Below are positions 3,008 through 63,110 of a DNA stretch of 64,000 bases, piece by piece. Both the position numbers and the translations under genes were made by a program. Position 1 is the stretch's first letter. The number at the start of each line of letters is the position of its first letter. The stretch spans positions 3,792,501 to 3,856,500 of the forward strand of contig NZ_CP045403.1 of the NCBI RefSeq assembly GCF_009363695.1, given 5' to 3'. The stretch comes from Bacillus sp. THAF10. Lineage in GTDB: Bacteria; Bacillota; Bacilli; Bacillales; Bacillaceae_I. A model generated the notes under the pieces. The model saw only the letters and a program-made list of their open reading frames with translations, made no database searches and was not told where the DNA came from.

Positions 3008-3110
3008 GGATTTATCAGCCGATTTGCCGTTTTATCAGCCGAAATGTGTGGTTTATCAGCCAGTTTTAGAATTTATCAGCCAAAATGAGTGTCTTATCAG
3101 CCAGTCGACA
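3008..3110. repeat. Tandem array of five TTATCAGCC units, period 20-21 bp
   Basis: TTATCAGCC recurs at 3012, 3032, 3052, 3073 and 3094 with variable filler between. The array lies in the 540-bp gap between the nuo promoter and the atpC terminator. The gap is otherwise G-rich non-coding sequence (2750-3000) and C-rich sequence (3120-3235) with no convincing gene. The motif and the flank ending CAAATTTCGC reappear at 62985-63125. Confidence 0.9.
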
Positions 3111-3237
3111 GTGTTCGGCAAATTTCGCCGCCCCTCCGGTTGCCTCCAACCCATCCCCGCCGACGTCCGCCAGCCCATTGCTCCGTCCGCTAAACACCGC
3201 CACCCTTCACGCCATCACCTCCGTCGCCCGCAAACCT

Positions 3238-3270
3238 AAAAAAAACCCCCACAAAAGTGGGGGTTTTTCA
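3238..3270 (-). terminator. Terminator of the atp operon
   Basis: A 7-bp CCCCCAC/GTGGGGG stem with a 4-nt loop is flanked by A and T runs, so it can work in both directions. It lies 17 bp after the atpC stop. Confidence 0.9.
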
Positions 3271-3286
3271 TCTATTCAGGGTAATG

Positions 3287-3688
3287 TTACCCTCTTTTGG
3301 CTACGTTGATGCGGTTGATTGCGCGTTGAAGGGCAAACTCGGCACGGCGGTAGTCGATGTCGTCCTGTTTGGACTGAAGACGTTGTTCCGCGCGTTTTTT
3401 TGCTTCTTCTGCACGAGTAAGATCGATGTCGTCCGCTGCTTCTGCAGTTTGGGCAAGGATCGTTACTTTATCAGGACGCACTTCGAGGAAGCCTCCGTTT
3501 ACTGCCACGCGGTCGGTTTTGTCGCCTTTTTTCATGCGAACTGCGCCGATTTGAAGTGGAGCAACCATAGGAATATGTCCAGGTAGGACCCCAAGCTCAC
3601 CGCTTTGAGCTTTGGCAACTACCATATCTACGTCTGATTCGTAAACCGGGCCATCAGGAGTAACTACGCTGACTTTTAATGTCTTCAT
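3287..3688 (-). CDS. atpC: ATP synthase epsilon subunit
   Basis: This central-stalk subunit of F1 couples rotation and inhibits ATP hydrolysis. The 133-residue protein has the N-terminal beta-sandwich ([29 protein letters not shown]) and the C-terminal helical pair ([17 protein letters not shown]). AGGAGG lies upstream of the ATG. It is the last gene of the operon, 25 bp after atpD. Confidence 0.97.
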
Positions 3689-3713
3689 TTCATTCCCTCC
3701 TAGGTCCCTTTAA

Positions 3714-5132
3714 TTAAACTTCTACACCCATTTGCTTCGCTTTTTCGACTACTTCTTCGATGCGTCCAACTAGACGGAATGCATCCTCAGGAAGGTGGTC
3801 GTATTTGCCGTCAAGGATTTCACGGAATCCTTTAACAGTTTCTTGAACAGGAACGTAAGAACCTTTTTGTCCAGTGAACTGCTCGGCAACGTGGAAGTTT
3901 TGAGATAAGAAGAACTGGATACGACGAGCACGGTGAACTGTTAACTTGTCCTCATCCGTTAACTCATCCATACCTAAGATAGCAATGATATCTTGTAGTT
4001 CTTTGTAGCGTTGTAAAGTAGACTGTACTTCACGAGCTACTGCGTAGTGATCATCACCAACTACTTCAGGTGCAAGTGCACGGGAAGTGGAAGCTAGTGG
4101 ATCCACCGCAGGGTAGATACCCATCTCAGAAAGCTTACGCTCAAGGTTTGTTGTTGCATCCAAGTGAGCGAATGTTGTTGCAGGAGCTGGATCCGTGTAG
4201 TCATCGGCAGGTACATAGATCGCTTGGATCGATGTTACAGAACCTACAGATGTAGACGTGATACGCTCTTGAAGTTGACCCATCTCAGTAGCAAGTGTTG
4301 GTTGGTAACCAACGGCAGATGGCATACGACCTAGAAGTGCGGATACCTCAGAACCTGCTTGTGTGAAACGGAAGATGTTGTCCATGAAGAACAGAACGTC
4401 CTGACCTTGGTCATCACGGAAGAATTCAGCCATTGTAAGTCCAGTAAGCGCAACACGCATACGTGCTCCAGGTGGCTCGTTCATTTGTCCGAATACCATG
4501 GCAGTTTTCTTGATAACGCCAGAGTCTGTCATCTCGTGGTAAAGGTCATTTCCTTCACGAGTACGCTCACCAACACCTGCGAATACGGAGATACCACCGT
4601 GCTCTTGTGCGATGTTGTTGATAAGCTCTTGGATAAGTACCGTTTTACCTACACCGGCACCACCGAATAGACCGATCTTACCACCCTTGATGTAGGGAGC
4701 AAGTAAGTCTACTACTTTGATACCTGTTTCAAGAATTTCAACGTCTGTTGAAAGCTGTTCGAATGTTGGAGCTTGTCGGTGAATTGGATCACGACGAGCG
4801 CCTGCTTCGATTGGTGCATCAAGGTCAATGTTTTCTCCTAGTACGTTGAATACACGACCAAGTGTGATGTCACCTACTGGTACAGAGATTGGTTTACCAG
4901 CATCTGCTACTTCCATGCCACGAACGACACCGTCAGTAGACGCCATAGCGATAGTACGAACTGTGTTGTCACCTAAGTGAAGAGCAACTTCAAGCGTAAG
5001 TGTAACATCAACTTCGTTAGCGCTACGTGCTTTATGGTTAATATGAAGAGCGTTATAGATTTCAGGAAGATGTCCATTGTCGAATTTTACGTCAACAACA
5101 GGACCCATGATTTGAGTAACGCGACCGTTCAT
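3714..5132 (-). CDS. atpD: ATP synthase beta subunit
   Basis: This is the catalytic subunit of F1. The Walker A motif GGAGVGKT, the [10 protein letters not shown] segment and the [32 protein letters not shown] region are intact. The 472-residue length is standard. GGAGGG precedes the ATG. It sits between atpG and atpC in the usual order. Confidence 0.98.
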
Positions 5133-5180
5133 CGTATTCCCTCCTAACTTACTTTTGCGAATTGTGTTTCACGTTCCAAT

Positions 5181-6041
5181 CTATTCAAGTGCGGATGCTC
5201 CAGCTGTAATCTCGGTGATTTCTTGTGTGATTGCTGCTTGACGTGCACGGTTGTAAGAAAGTGTAAGTGAACGGATAAGCTCTTTTGCGTTGTCTGTTGC
5301 ACTTTGCATTGCTGTCATACGGGCAGCGTGCTCACTTGCTTTTGCGTCTAGTAATGCGCCGTAGATAAGACTTTCCGCGTACTGTGGTAGCAATACTTCC
5401 AAGATTCCTTCCTGGGAAGGCTCGAACTCATAGGAAGTGATTTTATTTGTTGTTGGTGCGATATCTGTTAGAGGAAGCAGCTTCTTTTCTGTTACCTCTT
5501 GAGAAATTGCACTTACGAAGTGGTTGTAATATACGTATAACTCATCAAACGTTCCGTCCGCGTACATGCTGACTGCACGGTTTGCAATGTCCTTGATGTC
5601 CTGGAAGGATACTTGATCGCCAAGACCAGTAATTTCAGAAAAAACAGGAACATTACGCTTTCTGAAATAGTCGCGGCCGATTCGACCGATGGCAATTACT
5701 GCGTATTCATCATCAGATTTGTGACGTTTTTTCACTGTCTGATGAACCGTACGTAAGATGTTACTGTTATAGGCACCTGCAAGACCACGGTCTGAGGAGA
5801 TGACGATGTAGCCTGTACGTTTAACCGGACGGCTCTCTAGCATTGGATGCGATACATCGTTACTTCCTAGGGCGATACTTGCCACAACCTCTTGGATTTT
5901 ATCCATATAAGGATTAAAAGCTTTAGCATTTTGTTCCGCGCGGTTTAGCTTGGATGCGGAAACCATTTGCATGGCTTTTGTGATTTGACTTGTCTTTTTT
6001 GTCGAGGTAATTCTCGTTTTAATGTCGCGTAATGATGCCAA
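5181..6041 (-). CDS. atpG: ATP synthase gamma subunit (TTG start)
   Basis: This is the rotor shaft of F1. The N-terminal helix ([25 protein letters not shown] in part) and the C-terminal helix ending [16 protein letters not shown] are characteristic; length is 286 aa. The start codon is TTG, chosen because AAAGGTGG lies eight bases upstream and the encoded N-terminus matches the family exactly. The 113-bp gap to atpA contains a 7-bp GGAGGAA/TTCCTCC stem-loop (6093-6123). Confidence 0.96.
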
Positions 6042-6154
6042 AGGTTTTCACCACCTTTTTAAGCCTAATCAGAGCGATTATACACATGGAAAGGAGGAAT
6101 CGAAGGGTAGTTCGGCTTCCTCCATTTCATGGGATAACTCACTTTGTCGATCTA

Positions 6155-61932: not shown

Positions 61933-61939
61933 ACATGTT

Positions 61940-61973
61940 AAAACCCCCAGAAGAAATTCTCCTGGGGGTTTTA
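61940..61973 (+). terminator. Terminator of pbpG
   Basis: An AAAACCCCCAG/CTGGGGGTTTT-type stem, 8 bp after the stop. Confidence 0.9.
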
Positions 61974-62102
61974 ATGTCCTAGTTTTCCATGTGTTCTACA
62001 CATGTAGGTTAAGTTTACTTTTTTTGTCGAGATAACTCAAGTAGGTTGTGACGAACATTCAAAAAAATGTCACATCTTTATTTTCTAAAATCCCTTGACA
62101 TA

Positions 62103-62618
62103 TCAGGACGTTTTTAATTGATCCTTCAATTCGTCCGTTGCGCGATCCCACATTCCTTGGTCATGCCCCACTAAATAGTCTTGTAAAATTTGCTTTGAGC
62201 GATTGTCCATGTGACTGACCATAATATGGCGCTTCATCGACTTATCCATTTTGTTCACATGCTCTGGAAGAGATTTGTAGCCTCTTCTAATCTCTCGGTC
62301 CACTGTCATCTCGCACGCTGTCACGCCTGCATAGTATGGCCCCTCCTGTTTGCGGTCGATGGTCACCCACACAAGCCAAAATGGTTTTCCATTTGGTACA
62401 TCCTCTTTGTTGGGAAGGAACTTGATTCCTTTTTCCACCGTGCTGCGAGCATGCATCGCTCCGATATCAACGAATGCCTCTCCACCCTCTACGTCAACAA
62501 AAACAGGCGAGACGTTATCGAGACTTAATGCACCTATTCCAAAACCACCGTGCCCATCAGTCGGGTCATTTTTAATTATATTAAAGCCAATTGGTTTCTT
62601 TTTCTTTTCCTGATCCAT
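62103..62618 (-). CDS. ywhD: YwhD family protein
   Basis: This 171-residue conserved Bacillus protein of unknown function (pattern FNIIKNDPTDGHGGFGIG, YYAGVTACEMTVDREIRRGYK) is soluble. AAGGGGG precedes the ATG. Context ywhB-ywhD-pbpG matches B. subtilis. Confidence 0.9.
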   Translation of the reverse strand: MDQEKKKKPIGFNIIKNDPTDGHGGFGIGALSLDNVSPVFVDVEGGEAFVDIGAMHARSTVEKGIKFLPNKEDVPNGKPFWLVWVTIDRKQEGPYYAGVTACEMTVDREIRRGYKSLPEHVNKMDKSMKRHIMVSHMDNRSKQILQDYLVGHDQGMWDRATDELKDQLKTS

Positions 62619-62748
62619 TTTACGGTTGCCCCCTTACTTTTCCGATACAGAGCCACGATATTTCGGACTCTCTTGCGCTTTTCCTGTAATTATACAATAA
62701 TTTATGGGAGATGAAAAACAATAGAAGCATAAAGGAGCGGATGAGGAA

Positions 62749-62934
62749 ATGCCATATGTAACAGTGAAAATGCTAGAGGGACGCAGCGAGGAACAGAAAA
62801 AAGCGTTAGTGGAAAAAGTAACAGCGGCCGTGAGTGAAACCACCGGTGCACCGGAGGGAAAAATTGTGGTTTTTATTGAAGAAATGACAAAAGGACACTA
62901 TGCAGTTGGCGGCAAGCGGTTGAGTGATCAATAA
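62749..62934 (+). CDS. ywhB: 4-oxalocrotonate tautomerase-like protein
   Basis: This 61-residue tautomerase-superfamily subunit begins MPYVTVKMLEGRS, with Pro1 after Met removal as catalytic base, and Arg10-like residues GRSEEQKK. The natural substrate is unknown. GAGG lies close to the ATG. It is divergent from ywhD. Confidence 0.92.
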   Translation: MPYVTVKMLEGRSEEQKKALVEKVTAAVSETTGAPEGKIVVFIEEMTKGHYAVGGKRLSDQ

Positions 62935-62943
62935 TGGTGGGTG

Positions 62944-62980
62944 GCAGATGGCTCGCGAAGGTTGCTAGCCATCTGCTGCT
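62944..62980 (+). terminator. Terminator of ywhB
   Basis: An AGATGGCT/AGCCATCT stem (8 bp) followed by GCTGCTTGTTTT. Confidence 0.65.
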
Positions 62981-62982
62981 TG

Positions 62983-63110
62983 TTTTATCAGCCACTTTTG
63001 GGTTTTATCAGCCACTTCGAACACTTTATCAGCCACTTTTTTGATTTATCAGCCACTTTCCACTTTTATCAGTCGCTTCGAACACTTTATCAGCCACCCG
63101 ACAAAAAGGG
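62983..63110. repeat. Tandem array of six TTATCAGCC units, period 20-21 bp
   Basis: TTATCAGCC (one TTATCAGTC) at 62985, 63005, 63026, 63046, 63066 and 63087. The right flank ends ACAAATTTCGC, as the array at 3012-3110 does. It lies in the convergent ywhB-DUF2254 gap. Confidence 0.9.

Follow-up and report, generated by a model that had tools for sequence, protein, structure and literature searches.

Tandem repeat arrays with periods of about two or five helical turns (20-21 or 51-52 bp) lie at the ends of operons in Bacillus sp. THAF10, and we consider the chances evenly balanced that they act as DNA-level boundary platforms, a reading built from sequence comparison. The arrays were noticed in a window of 64,000 nucleotides, by which we mean the whole stretch analysed (bases 3,792,501-3,856,500 of the 4,087,834-bp chromosome). 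Tandem repeats were called with Tandem Repeats Finder (TRF), which recovered all seven arrays of a first-pass annotation at the positions given there; terminators were predicted with a script that combines a hairpin and a T-run. The annotation had proposed that phased boundary arrays are under shared selection, and this proposal is supported by the clustering of periods, by fixed spacing with variable spacers, by an AT/GC rhythm of 10.3-10.4 bp, and by the replacement of units at conserved sites.

The clustering of periods was checked on a genome sample composed of 57 evenly spaced 20-kb stretches and the window, 1.204 Mb in all, or about 30% of the genome. Arrays with a TRF score of at least 50 and a period of at least 10 were counted once spurious open reading frames inside arrays had been removed, and two of the 86 sampled arrays, which are 30-70% inside genes, were dropped from both the coding and the non-coding sets. 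The smallest period is 20-22, 42 or 51-52 bp in 45 of the 54 non-coding arrays vs 5 of the 30 coding ones (Fisher p=3e-9). The smallest periods of the non-coding arrays are 20 (18 arrays), 21 (16), 22 (1), 42 (1), 51 (3) and 52 (6), with nine others, and several of the arrays linked to ribosomal RNA (rRNA) operons are copies of each other. An autocorrelation of intergenic DNA, made without TRF over lags of 12-130, has as its top 14 lags 104, 52, 21, 42, 51, 20, 102, 40, 63, 41, 60, 61, 84 and 80, each of which either falls in 20-21 or 51-52 or comes close to a multiple of these. In this sample the periods do cluster, as the annotation expected; what stands out are lags near two or five helical turns, with multiples of these, and not every whole turn, 31 being outside the top lags. 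For the tests of placement and rhythm the classes were widened to 19-22/40-43 and 50-53 bp, and loci L162-L164, picked for a known core, were kept outside the counts of period, placement and terminators and inside that of orientation.

The two-turn class is made of a short exact core plus a variable spacer, and in the five-turn class the whole unit of 51-53 bp is repeated. With distances of 11-41 bp allowed, in this genome all 28 pairs of the core GGCTGATAAA are 20, 21, 40 or 41 bp apart and all 27 pairs of GCAATAAC are 21 bp apart; further two-turn cores are AGTTCGTGCCAAAA, GCGCAAATAAA and TCGCTCGTAAAT. Identical GGCTGATAA cores are separated by 25 distinct spacers, and some arrays carry a 41-bp double unit. 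When the units of 60 two-turn arrays are aligned, the ten best columns have a mean identity of 0.74 and the others 0.48, and the contrast between core and spacer is 0.255 vs 0.132 under uniform mutation; the unit alignment behind these values misaligned several arrays and permitted only steps of 19-22 bp, and its tally of steps is not taken as evidence. No palindrome was seen by eye in the two-turn arrays. Many five-turn units have TGTCC/GGACA-like half-sites as inverted pairs (by eye), and 26 of the 33 five-turn arrays examined contain a dyad of 5 bp or more (5 of the 38 were too short for the search and were dropped), the longest dyad per family having a median of 6 vs a mode of 4 in shuffles.

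Both classes carry an inner alternation of AT and GC close to the helical pitch. Its power is highest at 10.3 bp in 67 two-turn arrays, where it exceeds their own fundamental of 20.4 bp, and at 10.4 bp in 38 five-turn arrays; in the band of 10.0-10.8 bp it reaches 9.48 in two-turn and 5.36 in five-turn arrays, and 1.85 in control intergenic stretches, of which 59 of 209 were not used. When each of the 17 five-turn unit families is represented by one consensus, the fifth harmonic, with a mean of 2.73, is the largest of 25, and shuffles give 1.02 (maximum 2.33 in 2000). Because the 10.4-bp rhythm of the five-turn arrays is not implied by their period, it is the best evidence for a constraint on DNA structure. 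Moreover, some spacer positions hold A or T while the base itself varies, and the predicted curvature of the arrays, computed with assumed wedge values, is about twice that of control intergenic DNA.

The arrays favour particular gaps between genes. In the genome sample, tandem gaps hold 28 of them, convergent gaps 13 and divergent gaps 2, with 4 arrays lacking a flanking gene, and the corresponding intergenic bases are 109,629 (tandem), 22,365 (convergent) and 33,564 (divergent), the comparison of convergent with divergent arrays giving p=2.8e-4. Divergent placement elsewhere accounts for 0 of 4 arrays in the congener G008, 1 of 10 in G006 and 3 of 47 at named loci. A co-directional terminator is predicted between the end of the gene and the array for 33 of the 43 arrays with both flanks, at a median distance of 73 bp. 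Where the gap is tandem (22 cases), the following gene starts no closer to the array than 84 bp (median 203), and cores point the same way as the tandem genes around them in 13 of the 16 cases counted. Five of the seven rRNA operons have a downstream array of either class, one of them via a weak array of 2.3 copies about 1 kb away. In the genus, 12 of 30 loci downstream of 5S rRNA (two per genome in 15 genomes) have an array within 1.5 kb, and 10 of 28 do so outside this genome, both as raw counts.

A repeat of 28-30 bp (TTTTTCACGCGAGCGAAAATAATTATCCA-like) is also present in 2-3 copies behind rRNA operons 4 and 7, and 28- and 30-bp repeats are found at similar places in G015 and G004 (loci downstream of 5S rRNA: L107:13908-13988, L254:336-402, L261 and L282); these are possibly an additional period class.

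Relatives have arrays of the same period classes in several of the same gaps, with other letters. Six congeners were compared over the intergenic gaps of the window, and congener arrays with GGGTC/GACCC palindromes were dropped from the count of gap instances. Bacillus sp. RO2, the closest named relative by glpX among the 80 loci listed (97%), was kept outside that count. Congener arrays occupy 16 of 34 instances of the gaps that hold an array here vs 7 of 136 instances of other gaps (29 gaps), and a length-weighted permutation gives 6.9 expected for the former vs the 16 found (p=5e-5). Because some gaps hold the same units in G008 and G006, these two congeners cannot be counted as independent. 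At orthologous gaps two-turn and five-turn arrays swap.

The seven arrays of the window are all entered for the minus strand. The array at 3005..3103 has the core GGCTGATAAA on the minus strand at a spacing of 20/21 with variable spacers (TRF periods 20/21/41), between the gene for ATP synthase epsilon, at the end of the atp operon, and that for NADH-quinone oxidoreductase chain 3. In the same gap (2721-3287), 20-21-bp arrays of other sequence are present in all four congeners with data (G008, G006, G010, G009). At 13720..13799, flanked by a subtilase gene (11213-13522) and upp (13940-14569), both on the minus strand, the core TTTTCGCC is found on the plus strand at a spacing of 20-21 (TRF period 20); in this gap (13522-13940) the period is 20 here and in G009 and 21 in G008, G006 and G010, and G015 and G014 have no array. 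The convergent gap 36052-36445, which adjoins pyrG (36445-38121, minus), contains at 36092..36188 the core AGTTCGTGCCAAAA on the minus strand at a spacing of 21 (TRF period 21); the period is also 21 in G010 and it is 51 in G008 and G006, with none in three congeners. The fourth two-turn array (62980..63097), which lies in a convergent gap and starts 40 bp after the minus-strand DUF2254 gene at 63137-63985, has the core GGCTGATAAA on the minus strand at a spacing of 20/21 (TRF periods 20/61). It thus has a common core with the array at 3.0 kb, and the seven arrays, which had been called unrelated, are not all so.

The five-turn arrays of the window, likewise called by TRF, are longer. Downstream of a minus-strand gene without a Pfam match (25756-26199), 9.3 copies of a 52-bp unit, whose consensus has no dyad of at least 5 bp, occupy 25212..25695; the same unit family is also found behind rRNA operons, and in the gap (25055-25756) G015 has a period of 20/21, G010 one of 21, and four congeners have none. 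A 51-bp unit, again with no dyad of at least 5 bp, is repeated 15.3 times at 30521..31302 downstream of a murA-type gene (31396-32688, minus), in a gap (30246-31396) that holds an array here only and in none of the six congeners or Bacillus sp. RO2. Downstream of an arginase-family gene (57668-58540, minus), 20.6 copies of a 52-bp unit with inverted half-sites TGTCCTCAT/ATGAGGACA extend over 56548..57617; different 52-bp units are found in this gap (56358-57668) in G008 and G006, a 21-bp period in G009, and nothing in three congeners.

According to the annotation, all seven arrays sit just outside terminators. This holds for six, where a minus-strand terminator of the upstream gene is predicted between gene and array: 3233..3271 for the array at 3.0 kb (overlapped by a plus-strand terminator), 13895..13935 at 13.7 kb, 25714..25756 at 25.2 kb, 31340..31384 at 30.5 kb, 36267..36311 on the pyrG side at 36.1 kb, and 57620..57656 at 56.5 kb. 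For the array at 63.0 kb only a terminator of the convergent plus-strand gene was predicted. The remaining longer arrays of the window (1.1-1.6, 38.5 and 53.6 kb) are inside called genes; among them are a 120-bp repeat of 2.7 copies within a called gene (1314-1632) and a coding repeat (53613-53780; 18/36/54 bp) that looks collagen-like on inspection. Elsewhere in the window, the minus strand of 27239-27270 has the only Rfam match, to the L31-Firmicutes ribosomal protein leader (36.8 bits). The gap 21153-21434 has a 42-43-bp repeat with GGGTCTGACCC palindromes in G014, G006, G009 and Bacillus sp. RO2; it is absent here, and the 1.2 Mb of the genome sample contain no such palindrome.

The letters of the cores differ between species as dialects do. 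Pairs of GGCTNATAAA, a core with one free base, number 69 in 11 of the 16 genus genomes, and all are 19-21 bp apart where 15-30 bp were allowed. The free base is G in all 19 pairs of this genome. It is T in G001 (1 pair), G003 (6), G006 (1), G008 (2), G009 (2) and 9 of the 11 pairs of G004, the other 2 being mixed C/T, and A in G011 (2) and G013 (1), with one A/A and one A/T pair in G005; at a single locus of G002 it is C in 21 of 22 pairs. Since the free base is uniform within the genome despite unrelated spacers, a trans-acting, sequence-specific reader of the cores is suggested. Exact GGCTGATAAA pairs outside this genome are limited to a single congener, with one 17-bp pair in G010, and GCAATAAC pairs, counted regardless of coding status, number six in three congeners (one in G002, four in G009, one in G014). 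The locus in G002 (G002:C1:4193196-4193657) is a long array with its 22 GGCT[C/T]ATAAA pairs at spacings of 21 (17 times) and 19 (5 times) and a mean of 20.5, as if departures in one direction offset those in the other.

The period classes extend beyond this species. In congeners sampled like this genome, non-coding arrays belong to them (20-22, 41-42, 52) in 12 of 14 cases in G014, 5 of 5 in G008 and 11 of 13 in G006. Around glpX, 80 named loci contain 76 non-coding arrays, and the period is 20-22 or 51-53 bp in 45 of these. Among the genera with these periods at glpX are Neobacillus, Cytobacillus, Peribacillus, Mesobacillus, Rossellomorea, Robertmurraya, Fictibacillus and Evansella; since the loci represent a single syntenic region, the sites are not independent. 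An order-level sample of 20 genomes from 20 families (395 kb around rho; L239 is seemingly a genome also sampled as L026) contains 17 non-coding arrays, with two-turn periods in 4 of the 20 genomes (L226 being possibly coding) and periods of 51-52 in none. Rare as they are in other families, the classes are no general feature of the order. The autocorrelation of the 20 other families has a flat background near 86 and was not used. In 150 kb of Escherichia coli two arrays were scored as non-coding, one in the annotated gfcA and one beside rayT. In another family of the order, L235 has three arrays scored as non-coding (1728-2135, 4614-4804 and 7071-7297) with a period of 59 and GGTGCC/GGCACC words, which is a different fixed period in a different lineage.

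How the arrays might work can be outlined in conditional terms. The AT/GC rhythm would bend the DNA and let a protein wrap or coat it past the end of the transcription unit; that some kind of DNA-level protein platform is formed seems to us slightly more probable than the contrary. The likeliest reader would be DNA gyrase or a nucleoid protein, which might absorb the positive supercoils ahead of RNA polymerase and so insulate the next unit. In E. coli the gyrase motif is a phased 10-bp variation of G/C, elements of the BIME-2 type (bacterial interspersed mosaic elements) are strong gyrase sites, and cleavage sites are enriched downstream of operons (PMC6379681, in part). Gyrase specifically as the reader is, nevertheless, unlikely in our estimate. 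The exact, species-specific cores suggest that a sequence-specific DNA-binding factor may read them in addition or instead. The annotation had argued that the period keeps the motif on one face of the helix, an argument that is incomplete: no three-turn class exists, and some cores are exactly 20 bp apart for six units or more. These two facts suggest that spacing between proteins matters besides the helical face.

Several observations weigh against boundary platforms. The rhythm is an effect of the average, the fifth harmonic being the strongest in just 5 of the 17 unit families; a component of 3.06 bp (harmonic 17) is raised in the five-turn arrays without explanation, and the predicted curvature depends on assumed wedge values. 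The core-spacer contrast reaches p<=0.05 singly in just 26 of the 60 arrays, cores that keep exactly 20 bp through 6-7 units lose the helical phase if a turn takes 10.5 bp, and three-turn arrays do not form a class. Arrays are dispensable, being absent from 18 of the 34 orthologous instances and, in Bacillus sp. RO2, from all three own-array gaps covered; 18 of the 30 loci downstream of 5S rRNA in the genus have none, and G014 displays no depletion of arrays in divergent gaps (3/11). As for gyrase, it leaves the exact, species-specific cores unexplained, and its attraction downstream of operons in E. coli is not hard-wired in sequence, according to the sections of PMC6379681 cited here.

The most probable alternative, which we hold to be somewhat unlikely, is that the arrays are iteron-like. 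Sequence-specific proteins would bind side by side and block read-through or silence the boundary, their specificity would shift fast, giving each species a core dialect of its own, and bending would be a side effect. The exact core, fixed spacing and variable spacers of the two-turn class are what such binding predicts, and family-specific spacings of exactly 20 or exactly 21 bp fit contacts between proteins; the co-orientation of cores with flanking tandem genes and the free base of GGCTNATAAA, variable between species and uniform within this genome, point in the same direction. However, to serve all the different cores of one genome, either many proteins or a single protein of very loose specificity would be required, and several congeners yield only one or two GGCTNATAAA pairs. 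Nor does such binding account for unrelated two-turn and five-turn arrays replacing each other at one site, or for the inner 10.4-bp rhythm common to unrelated 52-bp units.

A second alternative, distinctly less probable, is that the arrays are selfish or mutational satellites: replication or recombination would multiply steps of about 21 or 52 bp, which would survive only past terminators since the DNA there is free of function. Copying is evident in the near-identical arrays behind several rRNA operons, in one 52-bp unit family present at many loci, and in the 41-bp double unit, which looks like tandem duplication; the rapid turnover of units and the location in permissive DNA are likewise expected of satellites. 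Duplication would copy spacers, yet 25 distinct spacers lie between identical GGCTGATAA cores, and arrays recur at the same gaps beyond what gap length predicts, though the null ignores permissiveness. Moreover, we know of no mutational process that yields 20-21 and 51-52 bp together with an inner 10.4-bp AT/GC rhythm. A common amplification mechanism, another proposal of the annotation, explains copying and turnover, but alone it leaves the variable spacers at fixed spacing and the inner rhythm unexplained.

That the arrays act as RNA, as arrays of hairpins in read-through transcripts or as small RNAs, is very improbable: the dyads of the five-turn class, longer per family than in shuffles, and the tendency of orientation to match the upstream gene speak for it, but two of the three five-turn arrays of the window have no 5-bp dyad, most arrays are beyond terminators, and helix-turn spacing has no obvious meaning in single-stranded RNA. 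A hairpin reading of the 52-bp units was rejected on arm changes, which have no preference for G-U on the sense strand (25 G-T vs 32 A-C). Rfam at the gathering threshold gave no match at the window arrays.

The pattern matches no repeat class known to us. Plasmid iterons and ParR-type centromere repeats are direct repeats about two helical turns apart and bound on one face; unlike the arrays described here, with dozens of loci and many cores per genome, they belong to single replication or partition loci. In searches of the open-access literature of PubMed Central, no description of such arrays was found.

The closest likeness in placement is to REP (repetitive extragenic palindromes) and BIME-2 of enterobacteria, extragenic repeats clustered in tandem at the 3' ends of transcription units, BIME-2 being strong gyrase sites (PMC6379681, in part). 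Here too 3' ends are favoured and divergent gaps are rare (2 of 43 arrays), and the function may turn out to be BIME-like. REPs are palindromes tagged with GTAG or CGTC (PMC3733652, in part), whereas the units described here are not one sequence family, and GTAG is present in 1 of the 17 five-turn families vs a shuffle mean of 5.4 (the CGTC tag being uncounted). Membership of the REP/RAYT system is not favoured, as there is no GTAG tag and no repeat near the lone Y1_Tnp gene. This RAYT/IS200-like gene has one copy here (G000:C1:3655571-3655903, L288), with no phased array or REP-like palindrome within the 3.5 kb around it; Y1_Tnp is found in 16 of 16 genus genomes, with one or two copies per genome in the 15 congeners, the match in G010 being a fragment with a stop.

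The gyrase motif obtained by Topo-Seq, compared by its published description, has a phased AT/GC variation of about 10 bp that covers about 130 bp at a strong site, and the arrays have such a variation as an average; it is degenerate and occurs as single sites, in contrast to the repeated exact cores seen here. Class A flexible patterns of 11 bp also have a T/AT rhythm near the helical pitch that is read as protein contact, but they are about 50 bp long at most and are spread genome-wide (PMC1242344, in part), whereas our arrays are local to operon ends. Uptake signal sequences (USS) and DNA uptake sequences (DUS) have short species-specific cores in many copies, often at 3' ends and with dialects (USS in PMC5217627, in part), but they do not form phased arrays, and an uptake reading is kept only as a resemblance. 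Clustered regularly interspaced short palindromic repeats (CRISPR) share a constant unit with variable spacers of fixed length (PMC5217627 and PMC3733652, in part); here the unit and the spacer are about 10 bp each and there are dozens of loci. CRISPR was rejected because core plus spacer, at 20-21 bp, is shorter than the 24-48 bp of the CRISPR repeat (PMC3733652, in part); cas genes were not searched for. For the placement bias a survey of spaced motifs in other bacteria gives precedents: its single intergenic motif pairs are frequent in convergent gaps and scarce in divergent ones. The sections of PMC5217627 cited here describe no periodic arrays.

Taken at its widest, and this we put forward only tentatively from comparative sequence, the arrays of many Bacillaceae could form a boundary system defined by period and not by sequence, in which a DNA-binding protein that evolves rapidly, or gyrase aided by a sequence-specific partner, would read phased and bent DNA, each species would have its dialect of cores, and two-turn and five-turn arrays would be interchangeable in function. 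If this were true, satellite-like elements would exist whose geometry and position are conserved while their sequence is not, and which homology searches miss. Such elements would be natural candidate DNA-wrapping sites for the insulation of operon ends and for transcription-driven supercoils in Gram-positive bacteria, and they would be an example of a DNA-binding factor co-evolving rapidly with the sites that it binds.

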